Both the position numbers and the translations under genes were made by a program. The notes beneath the pieces were generated by a model. It ran no database searches. It was not told the origin of the DNA and worked only from the letters and a program-made list of their open reading frames with translations. A stretch of 64,000 nt of DNA, taken from positions 124,001-188,000 of the forward strand of contig CALZUA010000004.1 of NCBI GenBank assembly GCA_945829235.1, given 5' to 3'. The DNA comes from an uncultured Clostridia bacterium. GTDB lineage: Bacteria; Bacillota; Clostridia; Oscillospirales; Ruminococcaceae. This document shows positions 30,443 through 64,000 of the stretch, piece by piece; position 1 is the stretch's first letter; every line of letters starts with the position of its first letter.

Positions 30443-30454
30443 TTTTTCACTTCC

Positions 30455-34473: not shown

Positions 34474-34487
34474 TATAATCTTTCCTT

Positions 34488-42954: not shown

Positions 42955-42969
42955 ATCGACACCTCCTTA

Positions 42970-44205: not shown

Positions 44206-44233
44206 AATAAAATCCTCCTTGTTTTTAACTATA

Positions 44234-48680: not shown

Positions 48681-48782
48681 GTTATATCATTATCATAACA
48701 TATCTGGGACGGCAATGTTTCTCATTTTTGAAGAAAACACACCGAAGCCTTGCTTGACAATCTTTTGCTTTTATGTTATTAT
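48681..48782. promoter_or_regulatory. Divergent control region between MoxR operon and WYL gene
   Basis: The plus-strand promoter of the WYL gene is TTGACA (48754-48759), 17 bp, TATTAT (48777-48782). An AT-rich dyad GTTATATCATTATCATAAC (48681-48699) lies just before the operon start and is a candidate operator. A TTGCCG box faces left near 48717. The arrangement suggests the WYL protein controls both directions. Confidence 0.55.
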
Positions 48783-48821
48783 TTATATTATGAAATTAAC
48801 CTACTGTCTAAGGAGGAGCTT

Positions 48822-50021
48822 ATGTCTTATAGAAAAAATAATCTTGAGGACGCGCCTTACACTATAACCGAAAGTGATATTATACAGTTTCTTATTGACA
48901 ATTCATCAAAGGGACATATGGTTTCGGGACGGGAAATCTATGCCGCAATGTACAAGCTGCGCTACCATACGGACAGGGTTGACACATGGTCGGACAGCAC
49001 TACCTATAACGTGTACCGCACTCTCGATAACCTCGTTGCACGGTCGCAACAGCAGGGCTTCTACTACGGGCTTAAGCTTCACGTTGAAAAGGTTCCCGAC
49101 AGTATGGACAACAGTTCAAGAGATCTGAGAAAATACTATGTCGAGGGGCCGCTCTCCGACTCGCAGATAAGAATTTTACGCGACGCTATCTCCGTGTACT
49201 CCTTCGCTAACCCCACGGAAACCAAAGATATTATCTTCGGGCTAAATCGGCTCACTCCCGAATACAATCAGGAGCCGTATGACCCGAAGCGCGTGTCTGC
49301 AATAAAATACCACGGAAGCTATTATCAGAACATTGCCGAGATATGCAAGGCGCTCTCGCGAAAGAAGTACATACCCGAAGTCAGCCGCTCCGATAAAGAA
49401 ATGATAGGCGAGGACTATGACGATATTTCCCTGACAAAGGATATAAACACCATTCAATTCAAGTATTGTGAATACAACTCCAAAAAGGAGCTTGTGATAA
49501 AGAAACCCAAGCACCCTATTGACGAAAACGACACTGACCTGCGCGAGGTTAACCCCGTAAAGCTGATGTGGACAAACGGCTTCTACTATCTTGTTACTTG
49601 TATGCCGAGCAAGGAGCACGGAGTTTTGTATGCAAACTATCGCGTTGACCGAATGAGGGACGTAAAATGCACCGACAAGAAGGCTATGTGCCCGCCCGGC
49701 GGTTTTAACGAGGTTGATTTCAAGAACAGAAACCCCGTAATGTACAGCGAAAGCGTCAAGTATGCGGTGACGATGATATGCAGTCGAAAGCTTATCAACA
49801 ATGTTATCGACACATTCGGCTTTGACGTGACAATAACCGATATTGACGAAAAACGTGTTCGTGTGGATATGCCTCGCACCTCGCCCTCGGGAGTGAAGAT
49901 GTGGGCTTTGGAATATAGCTATGGCTGTGAGATAATATCACCGATGATTCTTCGCAAGGAGCTTAAGGAAGCGGCAGAAAAAATGCTCAGAACCTATGAC
50001 CGCGACCCCACAAAGCTCTGA
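48822..50021 (+). CDS. WYL-domain transcriptional regulator
   Basis: The 399-aa product starts at ATG 48822 (MSYRKNNLEDAPYTITESDI) after AAGGAGGAGCTT. An N-terminal winged-helix domain (QFLIDNSSKGHMVSGREIYA, then STTYNVYRTLDNLV) is followed by the WYL ligand-binding domain (VNPVKLMWTNGFYYLVTCMP, YANYRVDRM). A C-terminal WCX-like domain (YAVTMICSRKLINNVIDTFG) completes it. WYL regulators sense ligands, often nucleotide or nucleic-acid signals, and are frequent controllers of defence operons. It is divergent from the AAA+ operon. A terminator follows. Confidence 0.88.
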   Translation: MSYRKNNLEDAPYTITESDIIQFLIDNSSKGHMVSGREIYAAMYKLRYHTDRVDTWSDSTTYNVYRTLDNLVARSQQQGFYYGLKLHVEKVPDSMDNSSRDLRKYYVEGPLSDSQIRILRDAISVYSFANPTETKDIIFGLNRLTPEYNQEPYDPKRVSAIKYHGSYYQNIAEICKALSRKKYIPEVSRSDKEMIGEDYDDISLTKDINTIQFKYCEYNSKKELVIKKPKHPIDENDTDLREVNPVKLMWTNGFYYLVTCMPSKEHGVLYANYRVDRMRDVKCTDKKAMCPPGGFNEVDFKNRNPVMYSESVKYAVTMICSRKLINNVIDTFGFDVTITDIDEKRVRVDMPRTSPSGVKMWALEYSYGCEIISPMILRKELKEAAEKMLRTYDRDPTKL

Positions 50022-50134: not shown

Positions 50135-50162
50135 TGTTACAAAAAGAATATTTTTTCGTATA
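50135..50162 (+). promoter_or_regulatory. Predicted ECF-type promoter, copy 1
   Basis: TGTTAC (50135-50140), 16 bp, CGTATA (50157-50162), followed by TACAAACAGAAAC. The same hexamers and the same 16-bp spacer occur before four other family genes. Confidence 0.7.
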
Positions 50163-50227
50163 TACAAACAGAAACGCAAAACAACAAACACTGCGGCTTA
50201 ATTAAAACTTATTCAGGAGGACATTTT

Positions 50228-51553
50228 ATGAAAATAGTAAATTTGGTTGATGAAAACGGCAAAGAGATTAAGGTTGATGAAACCAACGTAAACGAGTTCG
50301 TTATCCGCAATGCGGTTGAGATGACGAAGGAATCGCTCCCGAAAAATGTTGGGTTCATTCCGACAGGAAAAGGCACTTCTTTAGATGCCTATACTATGGA
50401 TAATTTCACAGATATGATTATGAAAAGATATCAGGAAAATGGTCTTTTCGATGAAAACAGCAACATTCCTCAGACTAAGAAAACAACCGCTTTTGCGACT
50501 ATGCGCGCCGCACAGCTTGTTTATAATATGTGCGTGGAGCAGGAAATAAAAAGAAATATCCGCACGCTGTTTAATGAGTCTGAAATCGGAAATAAGCTTA
50601 AGCCCTCGGTTTGTGATGACTCGATAAAGAAGGTTGAAGAAACCTTTGAAAAAATGAACAACATCAGTATGAACAAGCAGTTTGTTAATTCTATTCGGGC
50701 TGCTTTCAATGAGAACTCAACATCTCGTCAGGAAATGTTCCGTTTCCTCGACCAGAGCCTGAGATATGTCGATGAAGTAAGCCAGAACGTGTTTAAAGAG
50801 GAATATGACTATGAGGACGCTTTGTACTGGGGACGCAAGAACAGAGTAATTAACAGCGAGAAAACCCTGCCTATTCACGGCGCTGTTTACGATTTTGTTG
50901 AGCCGCTTACAAACGGTATGCAATTTGGTATTTCCTACGGCGAAGGCGACATAAAGCCTCACGAATTCCTCGAAAGGTACAGAAACGCCCCCGACACTTT
51001 TGCGGATAATCTTACAGCGGAAGAGAAAAACTGGGTGGAAAAAACCTATCGTCAACTTGAGGACAACATCTCGGGAAAACAGGTTGCAAATCAGGTGGGA
51101 ACTGATAGAGTTGAGCTGACCGATTTCAAGTCGGACGGAGTTCAGATTGTTTCGGATCAGGAATTTAAAGATGCAAAGGACCACACGAAGCTTGAAGCAA
51201 GAATTATCGCGGAAATCCTTTCGGGCAAGCAGGTAACCTCTCAGCCCAAGAACTCTCAAAAACCGCCCGTTGAGATTAACCCTACGGTTGTTTGCACAAA
51301 GCCCGAGGGCATTCTTGACTGGATAATCGAATTTTTTAAGAAATTTAAGAATTTTGTAACGGAGAAGGATAAGGTTAAGGCAATGAACGACAGTCTTAAC
51401 AAGGAAAAGAGCGAGGAAGACCTCAGAGCTGACCGTCAGAAAATGGGCCTTAACGACCTTATGAAGAACACGTTTGACAAGGTAACCACGCCCCTTCAAA
51501 AGGAAGCGGAGGAGAACGTCGTAGAAATCAGCCAACCTACAATAGGACGCTGA
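50228..51553 (+). CDS. Paralogous family protein A (shared module and C-terminal tail)
   Basis: The 441-aa product starts at ATG 50228 after CAGGAGGACATTTT. It has no signal peptide or membrane helix. The N-terminal half has TTAFATMRAAQLVYNMCVEQ, the diverged counterpart of the INNIN segment of the other members. Residues about 235-385 match the shared module (IKPHEFLERY, LTAEEKNWVEKTYRQL, IIAEILSGKQV, GILDWIIEFFKKF). Near the end is RQKMGLNDLM (403-412), the shared tail motif. It has a predicted ECF-type promoter. Function is unknown; it stands alone between the WYL gene and the ABC genes. Confidence 0.75.
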   Translation: MKIVNLVDENGKEIKVDETNVNEFVIRNAVEMTKESLPKNVGFIPTGKGTSLDAYTMDNFTDMIMKRYQENGLFDENSNIPQTKKTTAFATMRAAQLVYNMCVEQEIKRNIRTLFNESEIGNKLKPSVCDDSIKKVEETFEKMNNISMNKQFVNSIRAAFNENSTSRQEMFRFLDQSLRYVDEVSQNVFKEEYDYEDALYWGRKNRVINSEKTLPIHGAVYDFVEPLTNGMQFGISYGEGDIKPHEFLERYRNAPDTFADNLTAEEKNWVEKTYRQLEDNISGKQVANQVGTDRVELTDFKSDGVQIVSDQEFKDAKDHTKLEARIIAEILSGKQVTSQPKNSQKPPVEINPTVVCTKPEGILDWIIEFFKKFKNFVTEKDKVKAMNDSLNKEKSEEDLRADRQKMGLNDLMKNTFDKVTTPLQKEAEENVVEISQPTIGR

Positions 51554-51642
51554 ATGAAGATTTCAGGCTTATCACCAAAAGATAATTGAACCCTTTTCCG
51601 GCGCGAAATCACAAAAAGCCGCTAATTGTGTATATTATAACG

Positions 51643-51686
51643 AAATCCCGCATTGCTTTCACAAATGGTTGTGCAATGCGGGATTT
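51643..51686. terminator. Bidirectional terminator
   Basis: AAATCCCGCATTGC (51643-51656) pairs with GCAATGCGGGATTT (51673-51686), with T- and A-runs on both sides. It serves family gene A and the convergent ABC operon. Confidence 0.85.
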
Positions 51687-51704
51687 TTCGTTTTGCTGTG
51701 CGGT

Positions 51705-53666
51705 TTAGTTCTGCGTTACGTTCACGCAGTTGTTGAGATATTCAATCGTGTTCTCCATCCAATCCTCAACAAATATAGTGTAAGCGATTGGACCGTATTT
51801 TATTCTTTGGAAAGCAATTTCAACCCTGTTCAAATAATTTTTATTGCAGTTCCAGTAAAGCTCGAAATTCATCTTCTCGCTGTCCTTGCGGATTGCCTCA
51901 AGGAAGCGGTTTACGTCGAATTCGGACGGCTTGAGATAAACCTTGTTTTGGGTGTTATAAGCGTCGTCGTCCACATATTCTATTTCGCTCACCGAAATTT
52001 GTCCAACCTCTGAACCCTGTTCTTTTAAGGTTTGCTCAACCTCTCCGTATATATTTTCGTACCAATTCTTGGGAGTGACAATTCTAGTCATCATCTCGGA
52101 ATAAAGCTCGGGTGAAATCCAATAGCTCCGCGTAACTATTTCACCGCTTGTGAGAAGATAATTCAGCAAGATTATATAGTCCGAGGTATCCTCCGTTTGG
52201 TGTTTCGGAACTTTTTTGTGAAGCTCGGTTATTTCGGCGATTGTGTCTTTGTCCGTGGTAAAGTTGATGCGGAAATCTGTTTTATTGTCGGGGTATTTTA
52301 AATAGTCCGCCCAAATCTGTACATCTGCTCTTACAACCTGCTCGGGTGCGGGAACAAACTCCGCTTTCCCGAAGCCGTTCGAGAACACAAGCAGTGCCGT
52401 TATTCCCGCGCAGCCGACAAGACTTCCCGCCCATTTTGCCACGGTGAGGTGGAATTTGCGGAACGCTTTTCCGCTGATAAGCTCGAGGATAATGTACACG
52501 ATAAACGTTGAGATAAGCAGTCCCAAAACCCACGCGACCGTATCATTCTGCGGGGTGTAATAGCTGGTATGTGCAAGCTTCGCGAAAACCATATTCCACA
52601 TCGGAAGCGACATCGCCAAAACCACAATTCCCGGTATAATAACCGACATTCCCTTGTAAACATACGGGCTTCCGACGCGCTCGTTTCTGCGGAATTTTAT
52701 CAGGAAATACGCGCCCACAAAGAAAATTATCGTGAGCAGAATTGCCCAAATGAGATAATCCACGCGCCAGATTGGTAAAGTGCTGTCAACGTTGCCGATG
52801 TTACTGCGACCGCGGGCGAGGTAGTTTATGCAGAAAAGTGCTGAAATTGCCAGCATACCTACGGGTGAAGTTGCTGTGGCGGGGTAATAAATTGTATCTC
52901 CGAAGGTTTCTGAGCCGTATGTGTTGTTTTCTATGATGAAAAGCGCAAGCGCGTGGATTATCGGAATTGCGATATTTATCAGCACGGGGAAGACCGCCGC
53001 AACCGCTTTTTTGCCGCTTGTCGAAATTGTAAGCAGACTGAAAGCAATCTGCATAAAGCACGCGAAAAGTCCCGCGAACATACATTGCAGAACAATCGAA
53101 GAAACCACCTCGACTATTTCGACATTTCCTGCGTTGTGCGCGCCCCAAAATACTTTCGCTTTCTCGGAAATCACGTTTGTGAAGATAATTCCGACAAGTA
53201 CCGAGATAAAATGCGGGATAATGCTCGTTGTGAAAACCGCCGCCAAGTCCGCGAAAAAGCGCGTGTTGTGGTTCACGGGGAGCGCGTAGTCCATATCAAC
53301 GGCGTTTTTGTTGTAAAGATAACGGAACGAGCGAAGCGTTGTCACAAACGTGAAAACAAACATTCCCACAAGGCAGATTCCGCCGATGACAATGCTCATT
53401 TCCGCGAGCGATTGCGCTAATCTCTTGAAGCTCAATGCTGCCTGAATTTCTTGTGTTGTAGAGTTAGTCAACGCGCTCATTTCAGAAAGTCTGATATCCG
53501 CGTCAATCCACATATTTACGAAAATTCCAACCAGCGGATAGCTTAACAGCGCGAAAATTCCCGTCATTATCATCTGCGGGCGCAGAAAGCGCAGTTTTGT
53601 GAGAAAATACGGCAGGAATTTGTAGAACGGCTTGTTTTGCAGATTAACCGAGCTTTGAGCTGTCAT
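51705..53666 (-). CDS. ABC transporter permease (ABC-2-like, large)
   Basis: The 653-aa product starts at ATG 53666 (MTAQSSVNLQNKPFYKFLPY) after GGAGGTGCTCGGAT and overlaps the ATPase gene end by 23 bp. About ten to twelve transmembrane helices occupy residues 30-480 (for example MIMTGIFALLSYPLVGIFVN), and a soluble C-terminal region of about 200 residues follows. The set with a YtrA-type regulator and an ATPase resembles the YtrABC-like exporters that respond to cell-envelope stress. The substrate is unknown. Confidence 0.8.
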   Translation of the reverse strand: MTAQSSVNLQNKPFYKFLPYFLTKLRFLRPQMIMTGIFALLSYPLVGIFVNMWIDADIRLSEMSALTNSTTQEIQAALSFKRLAQSLAEMSIVIGGICLVGMFVFTFVTTLRSFRYLYNKNAVDMDYALPVNHNTRFFADLAAVFTTSIIPHFISVLVGIIFTNVISEKAKVFWGAHNAGNVEIVEVVSSIVLQCMFAGLFACFMQIAFSLLTISTSGKKAVAAVFPVLINIAIPIIHALALFIIENNTYGSETFGDTIYYPATATSPVGMLAISALFCINYLARGRSNIGNVDSTLPIWRVDYLIWAILLTIIFFVGAYFLIKFRRNERVGSPYVYKGMSVIIPGIVVLAMSLPMWNMVFAKLAHTSYYTPQNDTVAWVLGLLISTFIVYIILELISGKAFRKFHLTVAKWAGSLVGCAGITALLVFSNGFGKAEFVPAPEQVVRADVQIWADYLKYPDNKTDFRINFTTDKDTIAEITELHKKVPKHQTEDTSDYIILLNYLLTSGEIVTRSYWISPELYSEMMTRIVTPKNWYENIYGEVEQTLKEQGSEVGQISVSEIEYVDDDAYNTQNKVYLKPSEFDVNRFLEAIRKDSEKMNFELYWNCNKNYLNRVEIAFQRIKYGPIAYTIFVEDWMENTIEYLNNCVNVTQN

Positions 53667-54540
53667 ATCCGAGCACCTCCATTTCATAAATAAATATCTC
53701 CCCGAGCGAAAGCGGAACTTCATCGTACAGCTTCGGCGAGAGTTTTTCAACCGCCGCACGAACCTCATCGCGCTCACCGCGGACAATCAGGTGAGTTATG
53801 CTGCCGATGTTTTCGATGTGCAGAACGTCAATTCCCACAAAGCTCTCTTTGGTGACGGGCGCGTCAAACGCTGTCTGAATTTTGAACACACTTCCCTTAA
53901 CGCTGTCAAGCTCTCGGTCAAAGACAACCTTTCCCGCGTGAAGCAGTCCGACTCTGTCGCAGAATTCATCGATTTCGCCGAGATTGTGCGAGCTGAAAAT
54001 AACGGTAAGTCCCGTGTCCATCATCGCGTCAATCAGCATTTGCTTGACGATAATTCGCATTGTCGGGTCAAGACCGTCAAACGCTTCGTCGAGGAACAAA
54101 TAAGGCGTTTTGCAGGCAATTCCGCAGATAACCACAGCCTGCCGCTTCATACCTTTCGAGAATGTGTTGAGGCGCTTTTTGAGCGGCAAATTCAGCGTTT
54201 TGTACAGCTTTTGCCACAGCTCCTCGGAAAACGTGCTGTAAAACCGCTTGAAGTAGTTTTTCATATCGGTGAGCGTCATATTGTTGAACTGCGCCGTTTC
54301 ATCGTTGATGAAAAACACGCGTTCTTTCATCGCCGCGTTGTCGAAAACCTCGTTTCCGTCAATCCTGATTTCGCCCGAAGCCGGTCTGTAAATCCCCGAC
54401 AACAGCCGCAAAAGCGTGGATTTTCCCGCGCCGTTTGAGCCGAGCAGTCCGTAAGCGCAGCCCTCGGGTATAGAAAGCGTTATCCCGTCGAGCGCGTTTT
54501 TCCCGTCAAACTGCATAACCGCGTCCTTAACTTCAATCAT
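53644..54540 (-). CDS. ABC transporter ATP-binding protein
   Basis: The 298-aa product starts at ATG 54540 (MIEVKDAVMQFDGKNALDGI), overlapping the regulator stop by 8 bp. It has Walker A GLLGSNGAGKSTLLRLLSG, signature-type FSKGMKRQAVVICGI, Walker B YLFLDEAFDGLDP and switch histidine FSSHNLGEI. The LSGGQ signature is diverged to FSKGM, as in many ABC-2 exporters. It couples ATP hydrolysis to the large permease encoded downstream. Confidence 0.92.
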   Translation of the reverse strand: MIEVKDAVMQFDGKNALDGITLSIPEGCAYGLLGSNGAGKSTLLRLLSGIYRPASGEIRIDGNEVFDNAAMKERVFFINDETAQFNNMTLTDMKNYFKRFYSTFSEELWQKLYKTLNLPLKKRLNTFSKGMKRQAVVICGIACKTPYLFLDEAFDGLDPTMRIIVKQMLIDAMMDTGLTVIFSSHNLGEIDEFCDRVGLLHAGKVVFDRELDSVKGSVFKIQTAFDAPVTKESFVGIDVLHIENIGSITHLIVRGERDEVRAAVEKLSPKLYDEVPLSLGEIFIYEMEVLGYDSSKLG

Positions 54541-54919
54541 CTGTACCACCGTCCCTTTCCTCGCTCACAATTTTCTCCGCAAGCGATACTATTTCATCAA
54601 AACCAACCCCTGCCGAAAACGCCTCGCGAAGCGTTTTTTCCACATTCCGAAGCGCTTCTTCCTTAACCGCGGCAGCCGTTTCCTTTTGGTCGGAAATGTA
54701 GCTCCCTTTTGCGGGAATTGAGTAAATCAGCCCCGCTTGTTCAAGCTGAGCGTAGGCTTTCTGCACCGTGTTCGGGTTTATCCCGAACTGCTTTGCCACC
54801 TCGCGCACCGCCGGCAGTTTTTCATTCGGGGAAAGCTCCCCAGCCGCCACAAGCCGCGCTATTCCGCGAAAAAGTTGCTCGTAAATCGGCGTTTTGCCCT
54901 CAAGCCGTATATTCAGCAC
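54533..54919 (-). CDS. GntR-family (YtrA-type) repressor
   Basis: The 128-aa product starts at GTG 54919 after GGAGGATAAAC. The N-terminal winged helix is clear: PIYEQLFRGIARLVAAGELS, LPAVREVAKQFGINPNTVQK and AYAQLEQAGLI. The short helical C-terminal part is typical of the YtrA subfamily, which represses its own ABC operon. A dyad AACTGTA-N13-TACAGTT sits next to the promoter -10, consistent with autorepression. Confidence 0.9.
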   Translation of the reverse strand: MLNIRLEGKTPIYEQLFRGIARLVAAGELSPNEKLPAVREVAKQFGINPNTVQKAYAQLEQAGLIYSIPAKGSYISDQKETAAAVKEEALRNVEKTLREAFSAGVGFDEIVSLAEKIVSEERDGGTDD

Positions 54920-54957
54920 GTTTATCCTCCTCTCTGAATAACTGCATTATTTGTATT

Positions 54958-55013
54958 AACTGTATTATTCGTTCTAGTACAGTTATTATAGCACGCGATT
55001 TTTGATTTGTCAA
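54958..55013 (-). promoter_or_regulatory. GntR/ABC operon promoter with operator
   Basis: TTGACA (55013-55008), 17 bp, TATAAT (54990-54985) on the minus strand. It is followed directly by the dyad AACTGTA/TACAGTT (54958-54964 and 54978-54984), a likely GntR binding site over the start of transcription. Confidence 0.8.
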
Positions 55014-55051
55014 TAGTTTTTGCAAAAAATTCTGAAATTTCTTGTTTACGG

Positions 55052-55087
55052 CATAAAAAAACTCCGAATGCAAACTGCACTCGGAGT
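55052..55087 (-). terminator. Terminator of family gene E
   Basis: On the minus strand ACTCCGA-G-TGCA, loop GTT, TGCA-T-TCGGAGT, then TTTTTTT. It ends the 793-aa gene. Confidence 0.85.
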
Positions 55088-55105
55088 ATTATTTTGTTCA
55101 AGCGA

Positions 55106-57487
55106 TTAAGGTTTGCTCATGCCAATCTGCTTTGTGGGGGCTTGCGTTTCCTTGCCGGTGGACATATTCATTTTCGGTTTGATGCCTGTAAGATCGTCTA
55201 AGGTAATTCTCGTCTTGGTTTCGGTTTGAAGCCCCTCCGCTTCCTTCATAACCCCATCAATTTCTTGTGCAACCTTTTTGTCATGCTGTTCGGTTTTCCA
55301 CAAAAGCTCGGCATTTTCGCGGGATATGCCGTCTTTCATTGCACCGGTTATGTAATTTTCCTTCTCCTGCGCGGCTTTTTCTGCTTCTGTGAGAGGTCTG
55401 TTTCTTTCAGCGGCGAGCTTTTCTTCTTGTTCTTTCTTAATGGCTTCTTGTTCTTTCTTCATAGCTTCTTCCGCGGCTTGTTTTTTGAAACCTTCGTCTA
55501 TTTTTGCATGAATATCTGCGTAATATGCTTCTTTAGCAGATTTTTCCGCTTCGGAAATCGGGTGAGCGCGAACTCCGTCTTCATAAGCATCGGTGAACGT
55601 CATAGTGTTATCGTAGGTGAAATATTTATTATAGGCTTTTTGGCCCTCGGTAACGTTTTTGTTAAAGGCATCGATGGAAGGGGTAGAATCCAGCATATTG
55701 TTTGCCGGAGTGTCATTGCCGAAAAATACGACTTTGTTTGTGTTTGCGTCATATACCACCGTTTTCATTTCGGGGTCGTTTGTACACAGGAAGTTGTTGA
55801 GGGCAGAATCGGCTAGATTTTTATTTCCGAATAAACTTTCTGAGGAGGCAGTAAATAACATTGATTTCTTGCTCAAATCATCGTTGTCAAAGAGACGCGC
55901 CAAACAGTCCACATTATTATTTATTTCATCATGGAAGAACTGCAATGCAGCCTTTCCTTGTGAAGCAAGATTGATACCACCGATATTATTCGTATATTCT
56001 CCTGACGACGCAAAAGCGGGGCTTGCAAGAAACGACAAATAATGTGACGCGGGTGAGTGTGCAGCAGTGAATTTTCCGACTTCGGAATTTACATATTTAC
56101 AAACCGCAAAAAGCCTTTGGGACGCGTCCAAAGACGTGGGGTCATTTTTGTCGAAAGCATTTCTTTCAATCGGGTATATGTTCACGGCCTGTGTCAGATC
56201 CTGAGCAAACGATCCCATAAACTCGAATTTTCCGAACTTTTGGATAATGTCATTGTAATCATTGGGATCGGGGAAATCTATGCTCTCAGCTCTCAGAGCG
56301 TCATAGCTCTTACACATAAACTTTTCGATTTTTGCGGAATGATTTAAATAGTACTCCCGATACGCCTTTTTGGTTTCGGGGTCATCCAAACCTTTTTCAA
56401 GATTATTTTTCTTGGCAAATTCATCAAAGGTCATTGTACCCATCTCTTCAACGAATTTTTTCCCCATCTCTTTACGCAGGGCGCTGTTTTCGGGTTTGGT
56501 TATCTCGTCAAGGGAAATGCCCTGAGTCATTGCGTAAAAAATAGCCAGATTAGTGCGCCTCGGAATTGCCGCTAGACCTACAAGCGAACTTGTTTTGGAT
56601 GCTCTGCCATTTTTATCTATGTATGTCAGTTTAAATTTTTTCTCAATTTGACTTGAGATGAAATTGTTGTTCGTTTTTCCGTCTTCCTGCTTGAATTGGT
56701 CACCAAAGAAATCGAGGTCCATCTGACGTCTGAGTTTAGCCAGCTTGACGGATTCGCTTGCGATCCGAGCGGTAATTGCCTGTCTTTCTGCTACGGAAAG
56801 CGTCTTGGGCTTACTGGGAACTTTTACATTGATATCATTAAGCTGATTTTGCGCGACCTTTTCTTTGGCAGCCGCCAAATCATTCTTGAATTTTGCCGTT
56901 TCTTCCTGATTGGGGGTGGTTTCCTGATAAAGATTGTCGTAATTTCTCTCACTATTGTTGGCTTTTTCAACCCTTTGGCTTAAGTCCGAAGACCTTAATC
57001 CTAACGCCTCCAATATACGGCGGAAAAAGCCGGTTTTTTTCTCCTTAATATTTTTGGAGAGGTTTGTGGTTACGGGAACAGTTTCCTGCGGCTTTAAATT
57101 GCCGTTTTCATCAAATCCGAATTTAGTCACGGCGATTTCTTTGCCTTGTAGAACGTTCGCGAGTATTTTGCTCTTGCCTGCACTGTTATCTACTTTGACA
57201 ACGGAAGTGAATTTTTTACCTGTCCCGTACAAATCTGCGGGTTTTCCATCGATAAGTATTCCAATGGCGGGGTCAATTCCCGCTTCCTTGAGCTTACTCA
57301 GTTCTTCCGCTGTGTAAAGCCCGCTAATCATATCGTCTATGCACTTCGCGCCCCAGTCGAGTTCCTCCTTGGACAATCTTGTGTCGGCAATGTCAAGAGC
57401 CGCTTTTTCGATAAATTCATCTGCATACACCTTAAGGTTTTTGCCCTGGTTTATATTAAGGACAGCTTTAGTTGTATTATTAGGCAT
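55106..57487 (-). CDS. Paralogous family protein E (large member, shared module at N-terminus)
   Basis: The 793-aa product starts at ATG 57487 (MPNNTTKAVLNINQGKNLKV) after GGAGGAAAAAGTT. Residues 18-164 match the shared module (LSKEELDWGAKCIDDM, ILIDGKPADLYG, KILANVLQGKEI, KTGFFRRILEALGL), which in the smaller members lies in the C-terminal half. Residues about 230-640 are a unique region, then a charged coiled-coil-like stretch (EEAMKKEQEAIKKEQEEK). The shared tail motif TRITLDDLT lies near residue 760. There is no signal peptide or membrane helix. It reads opposite to the other members but has the same promoter. Function is unknown. Confidence 0.75.
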   Translation of the reverse strand: MPNNTTKAVLNINQGKNLKVYADEFIEKAALDIADTRLSKEELDWGAKCIDDMISGLYTAEELSKLKEAGIDPAIGILIDGKPADLYGTGKKFTSVVKVDNSAGKSKILANVLQGKEIAVTKFGFDENGNLKPQETVPVTTNLSKNIKEKKTGFFRRILEALGLRSSDLSQRVEKANNSERNYDNLYQETTPNQEETAKFKNDLAAAKEKVAQNQLNDINVKVPSKPKTLSVAERQAITARIASESVKLAKLRRQMDLDFFGDQFKQEDGKTNNNFISSQIEKKFKLTYIDKNGRASKTSSLVGLAAIPRRTNLAIFYAMTQGISLDEITKPENSALRKEMGKKFVEEMGTMTFDEFAKKNNLEKGLDDPETKKAYREYYLNHSAKIEKFMCKSYDALRAESIDFPDPNDYNDIIQKFGKFEFMGSFAQDLTQAVNIYPIERNAFDKNDPTSLDASQRLFAVCKYVNSEVGKFTAAHSPASHYLSFLASPAFASSGEYTNNIGGINLASQGKAALQFFHDEINNNVDCLARLFDNDDLSKKSMLFTASSESLFGNKNLADSALNNFLCTNDPEMKTVVYDANTNKVVFFGNDTPANNMLDSTPSIDAFNKNVTEGQKAYNKYFTYDNTMTFTDAYEDGVRAHPISEAEKSAKEAYYADIHAKIDEGFKKQAAEEAMKKEQEAIKKEQEEKLAAERNRPLTEAEKAAQEKENYITGAMKDGISRENAELLWKTEQHDKKVAQEIDGVMKEAEGLQTETKTRITLDDLTGIKPKMNMSTGKETQAPTKQIGMSKP

Positions 57488-57525
57488 AACTTTTTCCTCC
57501 AATGCAATTTTTATTTTCGTTTGTT

Positions 57526-57553
57526 TATACGCTCGATTATCCAAAATGTAACA
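57526..57553 (-). promoter_or_regulatory. Predicted ECF-type promoter, copy 2
   Basis: On the minus strand TGTTAC (57553-57548), 16 bp, CGTATA (57531-57526), followed by AACAAACGAAAA. It is the same as copies 1, 3 and 4 even though the gene is inverted. Confidence 0.75.
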
Positions 57554-57698
57554 TTTTTTTGAGAAATTGTCCCGTTTATTCGATTTGGAACGAAATGTAG
57601 ATAGCACGGAACGAAATTAACCAAGAAAATGTAAAATCTTTTTAAGATTTTTTCTGAATTTTGTATATATTTACAAAATCCGTCAAAATAACCCGATA

Positions 57699-57716
57699 AC
57701 TGTCCGAACGGACAGT
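57699..57716. promoter_or_regulatory. Palindromic operator candidate upstream of LuxR-type gene
   Basis: ACTGTCCG-AA-CGGACAGT, 8-bp perfect arms, sits about 100 bp before the LuxR-type start and about 150 bp before the ECF promoter of gene E. AT-rich promoter-like boxes follow it. The other sequence in this 328-bp gap is AT-rich without a gene. Confidence 0.55.
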
Positions 57717-57815
57717 AGATTTTGGAATTGTTTTATTCTATAATATTATATAGATATGTGTATAATTAGGATAAAGACGGGTTTATTCTGATGTGGAAAG
57801 CAGTGAGGTTGGGGT

Positions 57816-60182
57816 ATGCAAGAGTATATATCGCCGCATAAGGCGCTGAAAAAAATTCGTGCGTGCCGTTCTATCGAGAACGTTGTTTATATTTACGGCG
57901 CAACAGGCTACGGCAAAACCGAGCTGGTTCGGCAGTTCCTCAAAAACAAGCCGTATTTCTATGCCTCGTGTGCTGAAAAATCGCCGGATTTCGCGGAGGT
58001 CAACGTTGACGAAAATCCTAAAAAAGCTCTGCCTGTTGTGATAGACGATTTGCATTTGCTCTTTAACGAAGAAAAGCGCCGCGAGGTTATCGAGCTTACG
58101 AAACGCAACGATATCTGGCTTATTCTGATTTCCCGCAGTAACGTGCCCGCTTGGCTTCGTGACGCGTACATCGAGCGCAACTTTATACTCATCTCCGAGG
58201 AGGATTTGGGGCTTACCTGCGACGACATCAGCGAGTATCTCCGACACGAGCACTTTGAGGTTTCCGAAGGCGAGGTCAAAATTATTGTTGAAAACAGCGA
58301 GGGCAACGGGTATATCGTGAAATACGCGCTGGTTGAGGTGCTGAACGGAAATTCCGTCAACAAGGAGCAGGTTGAAAAAATACGCGATTCGTATATTTCC
58401 TCGCTTACCGAAAAAGTGCTTCTTTGGCTTGAACCCGAGGTCAAGGAGCTTCTGATGAAGCTGTCGCTGGTGGAGAGCTTTGACATCGGGCTTGCAAAGG
58501 TGCTTACGGGCGACAAAAATGTCGGCAGGATTATCGAGCGCGCAGGTGAAAGCGGCAATTTTATGCGGAAAAACGGCGAGAGCTATTCTTTCCGCAAGCC
58601 TATGCAGAAAGCGCTTTACGATGAGCTTCAGCGCTGTTATTCGCACGAGCAGATTGACGGTTTTCTCAGAAATATCGCGCTGTACTTTGAAATGGACGGC
58701 AACGAAATGAAGGCGCTCGAGTTTTACGCGAGGTGCAATGATACCGACAAAATCCGCGATATGCTTGTGAGAAACGCGAAGCTGAATCCCGAAATGGGTT
58801 ATTTTTACGAGATGCGAAAGTATTATCTGATGCTCTCGGATAAGGATATCGAAAGCGAAACGTGGCTTATGATATCAATGTCGTTGCTTTATTCGGTGAT
58901 GCTGAACATTGAAAAAAGCGAGTTTTGGTACGGCAGGCTGAAGGAGCGCCTCGCGAGTGCAAAAGGCTCGGAGAAGCGCGAAATTCAGGTGGGGCTTGCT
59001 TATCTCGATATTGCGCTCCCGCACAAGGGCAGTGTGAACACGCTTGATACTATCAAAAATCAGTATGTTTTGATGAAAGATAAGTCGTCAACCTTCCCTG
59101 AGCTTTCCGTCACGAGCAACATTCCGTCAATGCTTAACGGCGGAAAGGATTTCTGCGAGTGGACGAAAAAGGACAAGGAGATTGCACGGACAACGGGAAA
59201 GGTTCTCTCGGCGTTTCTCGGCTCTCACGGAAAGGGCTTTGTAAGCCTTGGGCTTGCGGAGAGCTTCTACGAAAAGGGCGGCGACTCCTACGAGATTTCG
59301 AGCCTTATTTCAAAGTCAAAAAACCAAATCGATGCAGGCGACGGAAACTACAATATGATGTTTGTCGCAATCGGACTTCAGTCAAGACTTTTCCTGATAA
59401 ACGGCGAGATTTCCGAGGCAAGAGAGCTGGTTGAGGGCTTTCGTGAGCGCACGGAAAAAACTAAGCTAATTTACAAGCTCGGAAAAAATATCAACGCCTT
59501 GTTGTGCAGAATTTCGCTCTACGAGGGCGATTACAATGCGGTTAACGATTGGCTTTTGAAAGAAGCGCCCGATGAAAACGAGTTTTTCGTACTGTACCGT
59601 TATCAGTACATCACGAAAATCCGCTGTTATATCGCGCTCGAGCGGTACGCGCCCGCGCTTGCGCTGATTGACAGAATGTCGGATTATGCGGAGATTTGCG
59701 ACAGAAAGTATATTTCGATGGAGCTTGCGGTTTTCAAATCAATCATAAAATTCCGCAAAAAAGCCGCTTGGCAAGAGGAATTTACTGCGGCTCTCCGCAA
59801 AATCAAGGAGTACGATTTTATCAGAATTGTTTCCGAGCACGGAGCGGCTGTTTATCCGCTTCTGGACACGGTTCGCGAGGAATTTTTGTCCGACGGGAAC
59901 ACCGCTGATTGGTTTGGGAAAATGCTTGATGAAACTCGCAAAATTGCGCTTTGTTATCCCGTTTATCTCAAAACGGAAATCGCAAATCTCCCCGCGCTCT
60001 CGGAAACCGCTGTGAATATCCTCAAAATGCAGGCGGAGGGTATGACGCTCAGGCAAATCGGCGAGCGCCTTGGCATAACCGAGCGCACGGCTAAATTCCA
60101 CGCGCAGGAAACATACAGAAAGCTTGGCGTGAACAGCCGCACCGAAGCAATTCTTGCGGCGAAAAATCTGAATATAATTTAA
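57816..60182 (+). CDS. MalT-like LuxR-family regulator with N-terminal ATPase
   Basis: The 788-aa product starts at ATG 57816 (MQEYISPHKALKKIRACRSI) after GAGGTTGGGGT. Residues 20-220 are a P-loop NTPase: Walker A IYGATGYGKTELVRQF and Walker B LPVVIDDLHLLF. A long helical TPR-like middle follows, and residues about 725-788 are a LuxR helix-turn-helix (LSETAVNILKMQAEGMTLRQ, GERLGITERTAKFHAQETYR). This is the MalT/LAL plan, activated by ligand and ATP. It directly precedes the sigma factor gene by 55 bp, so it may control it or act with it. Confidence 0.87.
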   Translation: MQEYISPHKALKKIRACRSIENVVYIYGATGYGKTELVRQFLKNKPYFYASCAEKSPDFAEVNVDENPKKALPVVIDDLHLLFNEEKRREVIELTKRNDIWLILISRSNVPAWLRDAYIERNFILISEEDLGLTCDDISEYLRHEHFEVSEGEVKIIVENSEGNGYIVKYALVEVLNGNSVNKEQVEKIRDSYISSLTEKVLLWLEPEVKELLMKLSLVESFDIGLAKVLTGDKNVGRIIERAGESGNFMRKNGESYSFRKPMQKALYDELQRCYSHEQIDGFLRNIALYFEMDGNEMKALEFYARCNDTDKIRDMLVRNAKLNPEMGYFYEMRKYYLMLSDKDIESETWLMISMSLLYSVMLNIEKSEFWYGRLKERLASAKGSEKREIQVGLAYLDIALPHKGSVNTLDTIKNQYVLMKDKSSTFPELSVTSNIPSMLNGGKDFCEWTKKDKEIARTTGKVLSAFLGSHGKGFVSLGLAESFYEKGGDSYEISSLISKSKNQIDAGDGNYNMMFVAIGLQSRLFLINGEISEARELVEGFRERTEKTKLIYKLGKNINALLCRISLYEGDYNAVNDWLLKEAPDENEFFVLYRYQYITKIRCYIALERYAPALALIDRMSDYAEICDRKYISMELAVFKSIIKFRKKAAWQEEFTAALRKIKEYDFIRIVSEHGAAVYPLLDTVREEFLSDGNTADWFGKMLDETRKIALCYPVYLKTEIANLPALSETAVNILKMQAEGMTLRQIGERLGITERTAKFHAQETYRKLGVNSRTEAILAAKNLNII

Positions 60183-60237
60183 AGTGAGCGGTATTGGTTT
60201 GGTAATCTTTGAACAAAGTCAGATTAGGAGCAATTTT

Positions 60238-60732
60238 ATGAGCTTTGAAATATCAGCCGAACAGGTGTACAAGGACTACAAGAACAAGGTGTTCGGCTAC
60301 ATATTCAACAGAATACACAATTACGCCGAGGCTGAGGATTTGACGTCCGATGTTTTTGCGAAAATTGTCGTGCACATCGACAGCTACAACCCCGAAAAAG
60401 CCTCCCTGTCAACGTGGGTTTTTGTCATCACGCGAAATACCCTTATCGAGCATTTCCGAAAGCAACGCGTCACCGAGGATATCGAAGAACTTCAGATACC
60501 GGTGAGCGACGAGCCTGTCGATAAAATTGTCATGGAAGAACAGCAGGAACTGCTTGCAAAGGCGCTTGGGGAGTTGCCGGAGAAGTTGCGCGATATCGTT
60601 GTTGCGAGGTATTATTACGGGTTCAGATTTGCCAAAATCGGCGAAATGATGGACATTTCCGAGGCAAACGCGAGAGTTTCCCACGCAAGAGCACTGGAGA
60701 AGCTCAAGGCGATAATCGAAAGGCTTTCTTGA
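60238..60732 (+). CDS. ECF-like RNA polymerase sigma factor
   Basis: The 164-aa product starts at ATG 60238 (MSFEISAEQVYKDYKNKVFG) after AGGAGCAATTTT. Region 2 is seen in VFGYIFNRIHNYAEAEDLTS and DVFAKIVVHIDSYNPEKASL (with STWVFVITRNTLIEHFRKQR). Region 4 is ALGELPEKLRDIVVARYYYG then FRFAKIGEMMDISEANARVS. The length suits a two-domain extracytoplasmic-function sigma factor. No anti-sigma gene adjoins it. The next gene begins 78 bp later with the unusual TGTTAC promoter, which is proposed to be its target. Confidence 0.88.
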   Translation: MSFEISAEQVYKDYKNKVFGYIFNRIHNYAEAEDLTSDVFAKIVVHIDSYNPEKASLSTWVFVITRNTLIEHFRKQRVTEDIEELQIPVSDEPVDKIVMEEQQELLAKALGELPEKLRDIVVARYYYGFRFAKIGEMMDISEANARVSHARALEKLKAIIERLS

Positions 60733-60737
60733 ATTGT

Positions 60738-60765
60738 TGTTACAAAATTCCTGAAAATCGGTATA
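60738..60765 (+). promoter_or_regulatory. Predicted ECF-type promoter, copy 3
   Basis: TGTTAC (60738-60743), 16 bp, GGTATA (60760-60765), followed by AACAAATGAAAACAA. It matches the other copies. Confidence 0.75.
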
Positions 60766-60810
60766 AACAAATGAAAACAACAATACAAGATAGTTTTAGG
60801 AGGAATTGTA

Positions 60811-62112
60811 ATGGCCGGAACAGCATTTGATTTTATTTTGAATCAGGCGGTTGGTGCGGCAACAGAAAACGCTCCGAATGAGATAGCTTATCCCGATAAG
60901 AACGGAAAAATCGTGACCATGGACTCGGAGGAGTTTATGGATAATCTTTCGGTCCTGATGTCGCAGAACGGTCTGCACGATTTTGAGGAGCCCGAATACG
61001 GTGCGGATATTAAAAACTTTACGGAGCGCAGAAACGCAACCCGCTCTATGACCTTCGCCCTGCACGCGATAAACAACATCAATACGGCGGGCAAAATCAA
61101 GTCGAATATCGACAAGCTTTTTGAGGTGGAAAACGTTCAGCGCTATCTGGAAGAACAAGGCTATGAAACCGCTGAGCAGAAGGAAGCTCTCCGCAATGAG
61201 GTTAAGAAGCACATCGATGATAATCTGGCGATTAAAACTTCCTCAAGAGAAGCAAATTCGTTTGTTAATGAGCTTCAGACGCTCTATAACGAGAACTATA
61301 AGGATAACGAGGACAAAAACGCGTTCCTTAAGGAAGGCTTGGCGTATGTTTATTCCGCAAGCCAAGAAATGAAGAACTATAGGGCTCTTACGGCTGATGA
61401 TACCTTGCATTCTTTGATTGGAGCTTATGAAAAATGTAGGGATATTGGCTTTGGACCGCTTGCCGATAAATTGTCAGATGGGCTTACGCTTTCAGACGAC
61501 AGAGCCATATTTGCCGAAGAGGCTACGCCGTCGCGCGAACAATTTAAGACTAGTTATGTCCTGTACGGCACCGCGTCGCAAATAAAGCTGTCCGAGTTCC
61601 TTGAACACGCTAAATCCGGTGAATTTACCGATGATGAAAAAAACTGGGCGGCAGGTATATATGATTATATCAAGAACAGGACATTGGGTTTTGAATTCAA
61701 GGATATTATGATGAACGGAAAGCCGATGTTTTCCGAAGATGAACTGAAGAAAAATCCCGAGGAGCTTTCCTGCAAGGTTGTCGAGAATATGCTCAAGGGC
61801 GAGGACATTGCCGCCAAGAATTCTTTCGACGGCAAAATCACTCACCTTACTCCGAAATTTGAAGAGATAAACAAGTCGAGAAACTTCTTTCAGAAGCTCT
61901 TCGATTTGATTGTGGAAGTTTTTACCAAGGATAAGCAGCGGGAACATCAAAAGGTTGAGGATATCAAGAACGATATCGCCAAAAAAGAGCCGGAAAATAA
62001 GGCTAACCGTGAGAGAATCAGCTTTAGCGAGCTTATGGGCAACAATGACGTTAAAAAGGTTACCGCAATGTCCGATAAGACGCAGGAGAAGTCTTTGGAC
62101 AAGGGAATGTAA
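60811..62112 (+). CDS. Paralogous family protein B
   Basis: The 433-aa product starts at ATG 60811 (MAGTAFDFILNQAVGAATEN) after AGGAGGAATTGTA. It has no signal peptide or membrane helix. The shared N-terminal segment is TRSMTFALHAINNINTAGKI (78-97). The shared module is at 256-372 (IKLSEFLEHAKSG, FTDDEKNWAAGIYDYI, MMNGKPMFSED, VVENMLKGEDI, NFFQKLFDLIVEVF). The tail motif RERISFSELM is at 400-409. It is adjacent to and similar to protein C, so they arose by tandem duplication. Function is unknown. Confidence 0.78.
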   Translation: MAGTAFDFILNQAVGAATENAPNEIAYPDKNGKIVTMDSEEFMDNLSVLMSQNGLHDFEEPEYGADIKNFTERRNATRSMTFALHAINNINTAGKIKSNIDKLFEVENVQRYLEEQGYETAEQKEALRNEVKKHIDDNLAIKTSSREANSFVNELQTLYNENYKDNEDKNAFLKEGLAYVYSASQEMKNYRALTADDTLHSLIGAYEKCRDIGFGPLADKLSDGLTLSDDRAIFAEEATPSREQFKTSYVLYGTASQIKLSEFLEHAKSGEFTDDEKNWAAGIYDYIKNRTLGFEFKDIMMNGKPMFSEDELKKNPEELSCKVVENMLKGEDIAAKNSFDGKITHLTPKFEEINKSRNFFQKLFDLIVEVFTKDKQREHQKVEDIKNDIAKKEPENKANRERISFSELMGNNDVKKVTAMSDKTQEKSLDKGM

Positions 62113-62120
62113 ATCGGTTT

Positions 62121-62148
62121 TGTTACGAATTTTATTGTATTTCGTATA
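62121..62148 (+). promoter_or_regulatory. Predicted ECF-type promoter, copy 4
   Basis: TGTTAC (62121-62126), 16 bp, CGTATA (62143-62148), followed by AACAGGTGAAAACAA. It lies in the 80-bp gap between two family genes, so each gene has its own promoter. Confidence 0.75.
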
Positions 62149-62192
62149 AACAGGTGAAAACAAAAAACGAACGTTTTGGAAAGGAAAGTATT

Positions 62193-63533
62193 ATGACAAT
62201 ACCTACACCTGAATTTTTGAACATTGTGGCTGAAGCTACAAAAAAGGCGAATGGAAGGTCTTTTGACGAGGTTGATGTTTTGGACAAGGACGGCAATGAG
62301 AAAACGATGAAATCAAAAGATTTTCTCGAATTGTTTGCCGATACTTTTTTGAACAAAAGGGTAATGGAAGAAGATGTCAGCAAGTCTGACAACCCTCTGA
62401 TTACAACGCGCGCTTTGGCGTTTTCGATCAATGCGATAAACAACATAAATATGGCGGGAAAAGTCAAGTGGCATATTGACGATATCGTAAATCATCTTGA
62501 CTCAGACACTATCAAACAATACGGCGAAACCGTATACGGACATTCTGTCAGAGAAAAAGAGGCGAGGGAACATATCCGCAGATCGCTTAAAGAGTACGTT
62601 GATAATCAGTATAAGGTTGAGACGGAAAGCCCGTATGCGAAGAGCCTTTTGGCAGATCTTCAGAAGACCTATGACAGGGACTACGCCAAGACCAACGCGA
62701 CCATGGAGCCCGACCGCTTTCTCAAAGAGGGGCTTTTGGTTATCCACATGATAAACGACGCGACTGACAGCAAAGACATAGAAAATGGCGGAGACCTTGC
62801 TATAGAAAAGGTTAATGATAACCCAGATGTTTCGGTCTGGAATATCGGAAGAGCGTTGCTTGACGGGCTTGAGTCGGCAGAGGCGAGATATGATGTTGCA
62901 ATGGGTATGAAGCAGCCCTCCGCGGAGAAGTATAACGTCGACATCAAATTCGGAGATTTGAACGGCATAAAGCTCTCCGATTTCTACAGTAAAGCCAGTA
63001 CAGACGTGATTTCAGGCTCGCTTTCACAAGAGCAGCTCGACTGGGCTTTTCAGACGGTTGAAGATATGCGTGCAAATGTTTTCGGAGATAAGTCGCTTGC
63101 CCCGTTAAAGAATTTTATGGTAAACGGCAAGCCGATGTTTGGTGATGCGGACTATCCAAAAACTCCCGCCGAGCTTTCAAGCATGGTTATAAAGAATATG
63201 CTTGAAGGCAACATTGTTTCCGTGAAGAACGAAAAGAACAACTTAATCGTGAATTTGGAACCGAAGCTCATTCAAGAGGACAAGGAAAAGGGCTTTTTTG
63301 AGAAGGTTTACGAGGCTATTGCAGATTTTTTCAATTTTAAATCCGCGAAGGAAAAGAAGCTTGAACAAAGTGGGGTTCAAAAATATCAGGAGAATATAGA
63401 CAAAAAGGAGAACAAACATGTTGGTGCTCGTGAAAAACTGTCTTTTTTGGACCTTATGAACACAAACGAAGCCAAGAGAACTGTTCGCCCGCCCTCGAGT
63501 TCCTACGAAAAATCCAAGGGCAGGGAAATGTAA
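62193..63533 (+). CDS. Paralogous family protein C
   Basis: The 446-aa product starts at ATG 62193 (MTIPTPEFLNIVAEATKKAN) after GGAAAGGAAAGTATT; the frame is open upstream without a site. Shared parts are TRALAFSINAINNINMAGKV (72-91), the module at 257-381 (IKLSDFYSKAST, LSQEQLDWAFQTVEDM, MVNGKPMFGDAD, VIKNMLEGNIV, GFFEKVYEAIADFF) and the tail REKLSFLDLM (413-422). It has no signal peptide or membrane helix. It is the closest relative of protein B in the window. Confidence 0.78.
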   Translation: MTIPTPEFLNIVAEATKKANGRSFDEVDVLDKDGNEKTMKSKDFLELFADTFLNKRVMEEDVSKSDNPLITTRALAFSINAINNINMAGKVKWHIDDIVNHLDSDTIKQYGETVYGHSVREKEAREHIRRSLKEYVDNQYKVETESPYAKSLLADLQKTYDRDYAKTNATMEPDRFLKEGLLVIHMINDATDSKDIENGGDLAIEKVNDNPDVSVWNIGRALLDGLESAEARYDVAMGMKQPSAEKYNVDIKFGDLNGIKLSDFYSKASTDVISGSLSQEQLDWAFQTVEDMRANVFGDKSLAPLKNFMVNGKPMFGDADYPKTPAELSSMVIKNMLEGNIVSVKNEKNNLIVNLEPKLIQEDKEKGFFEKVYEAIADFFNFKSAKEKKLEQSGVQKYQENIDKKENKHVGAREKLSFLDLMNTNEAKRTVRPPSSSYEKSKGREM

Positions 63534-63538
63534 AAATT

Positions 63539-63566
63539 TGTTACCTGATTTCATTTGCTTTGAAAA
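63539..63566 (+). promoter_or_regulatory. Predicted ECF-type promoter, copy 5 (weaker)
   Basis: TGTTAC (63539-63544) and a 16-bp spacer are kept. The -10 is diverged to TGAAAA (63561-63566), followed by AAGCTGTGAAAGCACAAAAA, which still aligns with the downstream GTGAAAACAA of copy 4. Confidence 0.5.
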
Positions 63567-63609
63567 AAGCTGTGAAAGCACAAAAACTTGTTTTTAAGGA
63601 GGGAATGAC

Positions 63610-64000
63610 ATGGCTGCTGACTATGAGTTTTTGTTGAGAAGAGCGTTTGGTCTTGCACAACAGACCGATATTGTTAATATTGAAGTTCCGACAGCGAACC
63701 CGAAACCGGGCTCTCACAATTTTATGCATATCGCAAATTTGGAGAGGGAGCTCTCACAAAATATGATGCATCTCGGTTTGACCGATACCGCGGCGAAGGG
63801 CGAATTAAGCGAGCAACAAAATGAGATTTACAAAGACACGGCGTACGCGCTTACTTTTTCGCTTATGGCGATTAACAATATAAATATGAAGGGCAAGGTC
63901 AAAGCGAAGGCGGAACAGTTTATTGCAAACGAGCTGTGTACCGATGAAGAAAGACGGGAACTCCGTGAGAAGATGATGTCGAGTATCGACGAAAAGTTTA
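63610..64000 (+). CDS. Paralogous family protein D (partial, runs off right edge)
   Basis: ATG 63610 follows AAGGAGGGAATGAC. The 130 codons present begin MAADYEFLLRRAFGLAQQTD and include the family segment YALTFSLMAINNINMKGKVK. The expected module and tail lie beyond the window. It is the third member in a row on this strand, so the cluster probably continues to the right. Confidence 0.72.
   Translation, partial: MAADYEFLLRRAFGLAQQTDIVNIEVPTANPKPGSHNFMHIANLERELSQNMMHLGLTDTAAKGELSEQQNEIYKDTAYALTFSLMAINNINMKGKVKAKAEQFIANELCTDEERRELREKMMSSIDEKF

Follow-up and report, generated by a model that had tools for sequence, protein, structure and literature searches.

The stretch of DNA considered here, called the window below, comprises 64,000 bases (C4:124001-188000) of the 3,226,107-base genome, in 52 contigs, of an uncultured Clostridia bacterium of the Ruminococcaceae (GCA_945829235.1, contig CALZUA010000004.1). 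It encodes an extracytoplasmic-function (ECF) sigma factor, an adjoining LuxR-type regulator, and five members (F1 to F5) of a protein family that has nine members in the genome. At a probability of about 0.7, we conclude that these genes belong to a hierarchy in which the LuxR-type regulator acts on the ECF sigma factor, and the sigma factor on a protein-exporting type IV secretion system (T4SS) together with its substrates.

In the proposed scheme, a regulator of the LAL/MalT type (57816..60182, +) would sense a signal and probably controls the adjacent downstream sigma gene (60238..60732, +). The sigma factor would guide RNA polymerase to promoters of the form TGTTAC-N16-[CG]GTATA. These would drive both the T4SS (a VirB2-like pilin, a CAAX-type protease, VirD4, a membrane protein, two VirB6-like proteins, and VirB4) and its dedicated substrates, namely the nine family proteins and small proteins. 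VirD4 would then read a C-terminal core in the substrates, leading to their one-step export across the envelope, most likely into a neighbouring cell.

A shared promoter and the ECF sigma factor

Scanning of the window for TGTTAC-N15..17-SGTATA gave four exact matches, at 50135 (+), 57526 (-), 60738 (+), and 62121 (+), all with a spacing of 16 bp and ending 38-65 bp 5' of the family genes that start at 50228, 57487 (-), 60811, and 62193. In 100 shuffled versions of the window the mean number of matches was 0.01, and four were never reached (0/100). The promoter of F1 (50135..50162, +) reads TGTTAC-N16-CGTATA and that of F3 (60738..60765, +) is the GGTATA variant, while those of F2 and F4 lie at 57526..57553 (-) and 62121..62148 (+). 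An earlier note on this DNA, made from the letters alone, had described such a promoter, with 16-bp spacing and an opposite-strand copy, before five family genes. The promoter, its spacing, and the minus-strand copy at 57526 are borne out, as are four of the five genes. The fifth site (63539..63566, +; TGTTAC-N16-TGAAAA), before the gene starting at 63610 (F5), was rejected as a separate promoter for its 3 mismatches and lack of a proper -10; upstream of that gene in the relatives G156 and G170, even the closest match differs at 4 positions. Since the site is poorly matched and not conserved in these relatives, F5 is probably co-transcribed rather than expressed from a promoter of its own.

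The earlier note had also called for the whole genome to be scanned. The exact form TGTTAC-N16-[CG]GTATA occurs there at 9 sites, against 2 for a reversed-pattern control and about 0.21 expected under a dinucleotide model. All nine precede genes of the proposed programme, at 34-65 bases from site end to gene start: seven precede family genes, and the other two lie in the T4SS locus, before the gene for an 81-aa protein and before that for the VirB2-like pilin, ahead of VirD4, VirB6, and VirB4. With spacings of 15-17 allowed, 10 sites were found (control, 3); the tenth, an N15 match on contig C25, was rejected, being inside a 201-aa open reading frame (ORF). One mismatch gave 18 sites against 34 for the control, which is chance level, so the 9 added sites were rejected and only exact matches were taken to define the regulon. 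Several family genes lie side by side, as a chance or tandem-duplication artefact would have it, yet 0.01 matches are expected in the window, the sites are found on several contigs, on both strands, and before unrelated genes, and other sigma clades go with a different -35 (see below); such an artefact is next to impossible, and the earlier note had already argued against tandem duplication alone.

The identification of the 164-aa product of 60238..60732 as an ECF sigma factor, also made in the earlier note, was upheld by profile matches to Sigma70_r2 (8.6e-17) and Sigma70_r4_2 (3.3e-11) and by a sigma70-ECF score of 108 bits (cut-off, 42.9). It has sigma2 and sigma4 regions only and a length in the range of about 160-180 aa, as ECF (group IV) factors do. 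The 788-aa regulator encoded directly 5' of it combines ATPase, TPR, and helix-turn-helix (HTH) parts, with matches to GerE (3.9e-13) and, both below their own cut-offs, to TPR_MalT (8.7e-8) and a MalT model (3.6e-22).

Distribution was followed in a sample of 43 genomes of the genus and in a family-level draw of 148 genomes. Orthologs of VirB4 (92-100% identical) and of the ECF sigma factor (80-100%; 80-91% in G156, G167, and G170), as well as the short type of family protein described below, all occur in the same 4 of the 43 genomes. In all three relatives the regulator (71-92% identical) adjoins the sigma gene, and VirD4 and VirB4 are 91-96% identical. The long type of family protein is present in those four genomes and in one other, G152. 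In the family-level draw the short type was found only in the window's own genome. Exact promoter sites number 9, 4, 3, and 7 in the four genomes and 9 in G152, against 10 in total, 0-2 each, in the other 38. All but one of the 23 sites in the four genomes precede a family gene, a gene for a 79-81-aa protein, or a pilin gene; the last lies at a contig end. Counted by gene, 23 of the 30 distinct family genes of these genomes are preceded by a site that has one mismatch or none and invariably N16, as against 0 of 123 other ORFs (24/30 and 6/123 with up to two mismatches), in a count of 31 rows for 30 genes, one appearing twice, with two start positions set by hand and background ORFs called mechanically and in part spurious. 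A -35 and -10 of fixed spacing thus stand before the targets and co-occur with the sigma gene, as in an ECF regulon, with G152 as the exception.

Two observations speak against so simple a picture. Seven of the 30 family genes, including all three F5 and both F8 copies, have no site at one mismatch or fewer. G152 (83% complete) has its nine promoter sites and a long-type member with no match to VirB4 (E 1e-100), the ECF sigma factor (1e-25), or VirD4 (1e-10) at the limits used. The G152 sites (L134-L143) are spread over several contigs, and 6 of the 9 lie 21-56 bases before genes for proteins of 292-812 aa with no Pfam match over the cut-off.

The case for recognition of these promoters by the ECF factors is strongest in their co-variation: the -35 tracks the sigma clade while the -10 and the spacing stay constant. 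A VirD4 scan returned 211 relatives, and 80 loci were kept. Not all sites in them are independent, since L155 and L156 duplicate the contigs of G156 and G167 and since L201 is closely related to L202. Locus L157 (uncultured Clostridia, VirD4 77% identical) contains a short-type family gene, a gene for a 75-aa core-bearing protein, a T4SS, and an ECF factor 47% identical to that of the window; it holds three copies of TGTAAC-N16-CGTATA (0.0009 expected), among them those preceding the family gene and the pilin gene. A second ECF clade is encoded in L166, L184, L186, L196, L201, and L202, beside a 73-81-aa protein and VirD4. Its members are 46-88% identical to one another, where compared, and 27-35% identical to the ECF factors of the window and L157. 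TGAGCT-N16-SGTATA has 8 sites in these six loci (115,757 bases) and 1 in the other 74 (1.26 Mb), the latter inside a gene and antisense; this is an after-the-fact count within the 80 loci, as the box was first seen when CGTATA sites were listed in eight loci. The 8 sites precede the ECF gene itself (3 loci), a small protein (2 sites), a pilin gene, and the genes for two larger proteins, one core-bearing of 381 aa and the other of 739 aa; spacings of 14 and 18 as well as the reversed boxes TCGAGT and CATTGT all give 0. Between the two ECF clades the -35 differs (TGTTAC or TGTAAC versus TGAGCT), and the -10 and the N16 spacing do not. By tblastn within the DNA fetched, such an ECF gene was found in 11 of the 80 loci, most loci being without a match.

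TGTTAC could alternatively be where the LuxR-type regulator binds as an activator, ahead of some other promoter, or a different ECF factor could read the promoter. The regulator is, after all, encoded beside the sigma gene, and another ECF factor, 38% identical to that of the window, is encoded in the same genome (C23:40808). Against these possibilities, every site that has one mismatch or none keeps 16 bases between its boxes, the -35 changes with the ECF clade, and ECF loci without a LAL regulator keep the promoter; a LAL homolog was seen in only 1 of the 77 distant loci within the DNA fetched. Counts of neighbouring genes in these 77 loci are lower bounds, because the greedy ORF caller overlooked real genes, at least two in number (the ECF gene of L184 and the pilin gene of L196). 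The 36-38% identical ECF factors of five other genomes of the genus accompany 0, 0, 1, 0, and 0 motif matches. We regard either arrangement as improbable. A dedicated ECF sigma regulon, as predicted in the earlier note, is very probably present; the joint occurrence of sigma factor, promoter, and family in the genus and the co-variation of the -35 elsewhere support it strongly.

The type IV secretion locus

Contig C4 continues for 4.4 kb beyond the window and breaks off within a virD4-like gene, and contig C23 starts with the remainder; the split gene and a 55-base overlap suggest that the two contigs adjoin. F5 (63610..64000, +) crosses the end of the window and is complete, at 433 aa, at L016:611-1912. 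It is followed by the gene for the 81-aa protein and, 1.3 kb past the window end, that for the pilin, each with its own promoter site. Next come genes for an Rce1-like CAAX-type protease, VirD4, a membrane protein without a Pfam match, two VirB6-like proteins, VirB4, a solute-binding-like lipoprotein, a 142-aa protein, and three proteins of exported or membrane type, as judged by reading (one with an Ig-like match below the cut-off). RsbV-like STAS and RsbW-like ATPase genes and the family genes F6, F7, and F8 lie 3' of these. Pfam identifies the pilin (PF18895, 1.2e-10), VirD4 (1.2e-33), and VirB4 (1.9e-20), and VirB4 also matches the solved structure 4ag5 (E 5.8e-44). A VirD4 coupling ATPase, a VirB4 ATPase, VirB6, and a VirB2-like pilin are thus encoded in a single locus, as expected of a T4SS. 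In the Pfam- and NCBIfam-scanned genes neither a VirB1-like cell-wall hydrolase nor VirB8 was recognised, which counts against the proposed reading, although divergent forms may escape such scans. If the regulon exists, this T4SS almost certainly belongs to it. The purpose of the regulon, which the earlier note had left blank, is thereby narrowed: it includes a T4SS, and the family resembles the secreted substrates of one.

Several genes of the locus recur in the 77 distant VirD4 loci. The CAAX-type membrane protease between the pilin and VirD4 (L016:2773-3753) is found in at least 37 of them and RsbV in at least 40 (in the window's genome, the RsbV-like and RsbW-like genes lie at L018:8496-9238). 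As RsbV and RsbW recur with the T4SS even where no ECF gene is visible, their distribution suggests that they are an older regulatory partner of the machine. F8 is directly followed by genes for proteins of 1230 and 354 aa with no Pfam match over the cut-off (L021:1314-6028, G000 C23).

The T4SS might, instead of exporting proteins, be the conjugation machine of an integrative element, with the family proteins as helpers that, like polyvalent proteins, accompany the DNA or work inside the donor cell. The machine parts themselves weigh on this side and against protein export, and because they belong to conjugation families a conjugative role keeps its standing. The pilin and the first VirB6-like protein pass the cut-offs of NCBIfam conjugation families of mycoplasma integrative and conjugative elements (ICEs), and VirB4 and VirD4 fall just under theirs (546 of 590 and 242.5 of 250 bits). 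The locus is present in only 4 of the 43 genomes of the genus, the flanking DNA fetched from G156 and G167 shows no synteny with that of the window, and F4 has one weak match to LPD18, a domain of polyvalent proteins (E 0.025, below the cut-off; no other LPD or enzymatic domain of such proteins came over it).

Other findings are harder to reconcile with conjugation. Among the Pfam-scanned locus genes (those at 51705-54919, for an ABC transporter and a GntR protein, and that for the 81-aa protein were left out of the scan) there is no relaxase, and the only PF03432 match in the genome is on another contig, C3, other MOB families not having been searched genome-wide. Genes of the putative cargo lie on more than one contig, some of them apart from the T4SS. 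The 1075-aa long-type member has no tblastn match in plasmid or phage collections, and F3 has none in viral contigs. The idea that the family is carried mainly by mobile elements found no support, as the plasmid, phage, viral-contig, and PHROGs searches were all empty. On balance, the conjugation-helper alternative appears unlikely, and we lean toward a T4SS whose main role is non-conjugative.

Family proteins and their C-terminal core

The nine family proteins are of two types. The short type (alignment A1) comprises proteins of 425-446 aa and an 835-aa relative, and includes F1 (441 aa; 50228..51553, +), F3 (433 aa; 60811..62112, +), and F4 (446 aa; 62193..63533, +). The long type (alignment A2) comprises proteins of 793-1075 aa, among them F2 (793 aa; 55106..57487, -). 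The two types have a module of about 125 residues in common, according to profile comparison (probability 90%, E 1.8e-6). By hydropathy, none of the nine has a signal peptide or membrane segment. Searches with the cargo gave no Pfam or NCBIfam family above the cut-off (F1 and F2 included), no PHROG (8 proteins tried), no relative in the PDB, and no identification by PADLOC. Known C-terminal domains of T4SS effectors, such as BID and XVIPCD, the domain of X-T4SS cargo, had no Pfam match over the cut-off in the scanned cargo. One long-type gene, with a perfect promoter of its own, is found on a different contig from the T4SS, close to transposase-like genes identified by reading (L017:9192-11981, G000 C13).

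Short-type proteins of the window and its relatives are 20-56% identical to F3, while VirD4 and VirB4 are conserved at 91-96% and the regulator, sigma factor, VirD4, and VirB4 together are retained at 71-96%. Variable copy number and sequence beside a conserved VirD4 and VirB4 are the pattern of cargo and not of a machine part. The family could still belong to the T4SS structure or serve its assembly, as surface, adaptor, or scaffold proteins, in which case the core would dock to VirD4 or the channel and would not be a secretion signal. Family and T4SS in one regulon and a common core favour this, and a small protein whose tail resembles the core, beside VirD4 in several other loci, behaves as a fixed component. 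The low identity to F3 and the several paralogs per genome, set against VirD4 and VirB4 at more than 90%, speak against it, and we consider it unlikely. Export of the family proteins by the T4SS is the likely reading of these patterns.

Programme proteins that are otherwise unlike end alike, as seen in F3 (NRERISFSELMGN, 62005..62043, +, 35 aa from the end), F5 (EREKVTFNELIGN), F2 (TKTRITLDDLTGI, 55181..55219, -, 37 aa from the end), the 81-aa protein (SRERVSLDELSDV), and the 142-aa protein of the T4SS locus (YRVKITFEELLRE), which carries the core without a promoter site of its own. In F1 the core is DRQKMGLNDLMKN (51431..51469, +, 40 aa from the end) and in F4 AREKLSFLDLMNT (63426..63464, +, 35 aa from the end). 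The consensus is approximately [RK]-x-[KR]-[ILVM]-[ST]-[FL]-x-[DE]-[LI] (similar to RxKISFxEL) and starts 35-51 residues from the end. Cores were scored by leave-one-out with a position-specific scoring matrix (PSSM) built from 11 cores aligned by eye, and 9 of the 11 programme proteins score above all 148 background ORFs, which were called mechanically and are in part spurious.

The full matrix was also applied to 76 distant T4SS loci, where 19 of 1059 ORFs, likewise called mechanically and in part spurious, reach a score of 12 bits or more within their C-terminal 100 residues, in 17 loci; with 60 column-permuted matrices the number of matches averaged 1.1 and never exceeded 8. Outside the last 100 residues, there is 1 core match in 297,459 residues (671 of these proteins). 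Remote homology searches with the distant core-bearing proteins returned only very weak matches. The best belongs to a 445-aa core-bearing protein from one such locus (L180:1-1338), whose kinase-like match to Fam20C has E 0.007, below the cut-off.

Some of these counts tell against a uniform signal. The cores of F8 (6 of 148 background ORFs score as high) and of the 142-aa protein (1 of 148) stay within the background range, and a strict regular expression catches only 5 of the 9 family proteins, its other matches among 151 ORFs being only a duplicate F4 tail and the 142-aa protein. At least one of the 19 distant matches, inside the ECF sigma factor of L186, is false, and only 2 (L184 and L186) of six small proteins with core-like tails beside VirD4 in second-clade loci exceed the background maximum.

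T4SS cargo in other systems is marked by short C-terminal signals. One such case is reported in PMC8262851. By this analogy, and since the core proteins would be co-regulated with the VirD4 machine, we infer that the core may be what VirD4, as coupling protein, recognises as an export signal. Whether the T4SS represents an undescribed, relaxase-less class that is spread in the Clostridia and exports protein arsenals with a new short C-terminal signal, machine and cargo being wired together by a co-evolving ECF factor in several lineages, we consider evenly poised; records of the loci in question are titled Oscillospiraceae, Lachnospiraceae, Hungatella, and Defluviitaleaceae. Gram-positive bacteria would, on this reading, possess a T4SS dedicated to effector delivery.

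Elsewhere in the window, a WYL-domain regulator (48750-50021, +) is encoded 5' of F1, with WYL (6.5e-5) and WCX (2.3e-5) matches both above the cut-off. Reading of translations points to a Tad/Flp-type pilus-like cluster at 29570-34659 (-), with two TadB/TadC-like membrane proteins, a TadA-like ATPase (31381-32769), a ParA-like protein (32766-33623), and a CpaB-like protein (33607-34659), and to neighbouring MoxR-type AAA ATPase-like and vWA-like genes at 41644-44244 (-). Near the latter pair lies an AAA ATPase gene (45549-47213; AAA 2.5e-15) with IetA-type PADLOC matches, the best at 1.7e-8.

Significance and comparison with known systems

A T4SS that exports proteins under its own sigma factor has hardly been described so far in Gram-positive bacteria. 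According to a 2025 review, nearly all known functions of Gram-positive T4SSs are in DNA transfer, and dedicated effector translocation is a long-standing question for which the 89K system of Streptococcus suis is the first apparent case (PMC12857230). Passages of a 2019 review describe only conjugative Gram-positive systems as characterised in some detail (PMC6540685). Among the literature matches listed, taken from the titles and abstract starts of open-licence papers, there was no account of this system, of a matching ECF regulon, or of the C-terminal core. The locus offers a concrete test case, in which the machine, a predicted cargo list, a predicted signal, and a switch come together. 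The promoter motif allows cargo to be listed without recourse to homology. In the two ECF clades, each with a -35 of its own, the co-evolution of sigma factors and promoters can be followed as a natural experiment.

With its homologous VirB2-like pilin, VirB6-like protein, VirB4, and VirD4, the system resembles MPF_FATA conjugation T4SSs, such as that of the mycoplasma ICE (Mbov_0395/0396/0397) and the CD1115-type of C. difficile, and its T4SS would be of the MPF_FATA type. It differs from them in having no relaxase in the scanned locus genes, in its dedicated ECF regulon, in the CAAX-type protease and RsbV/RsbW, and in having core-bearing cargo genes outside the locus as well. The T4SSs of Patescibacteria are likewise found in monoderm bacteria, mostly lack a relaxase, are related to MPF_FATA, and have the T4SS_pilin family as a marker; the passages of PMC12102498 on them mention neither an ECF regulon nor a cargo signal, unlike what is found here. 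In the bacteria-killing X-T4SS of Xanthomonas and Stenotrophomonas, a C-terminal consensus also defines the cargo set, as two papers have it (PMC6536674, PMC8262851), although those are Gram-negative systems and XVIPCD was not found by Pfam in the cargo described here. A Gram-positive parallel is the S. suis 89K T4SS, which, according to PMC12857230, is proposed to export a protein, SspA-1. One protease is named there, whereas the system described here is set apart, at the level of these descriptions, by a paralogous family of putative cargo, a common core, and a sigma factor of its own.

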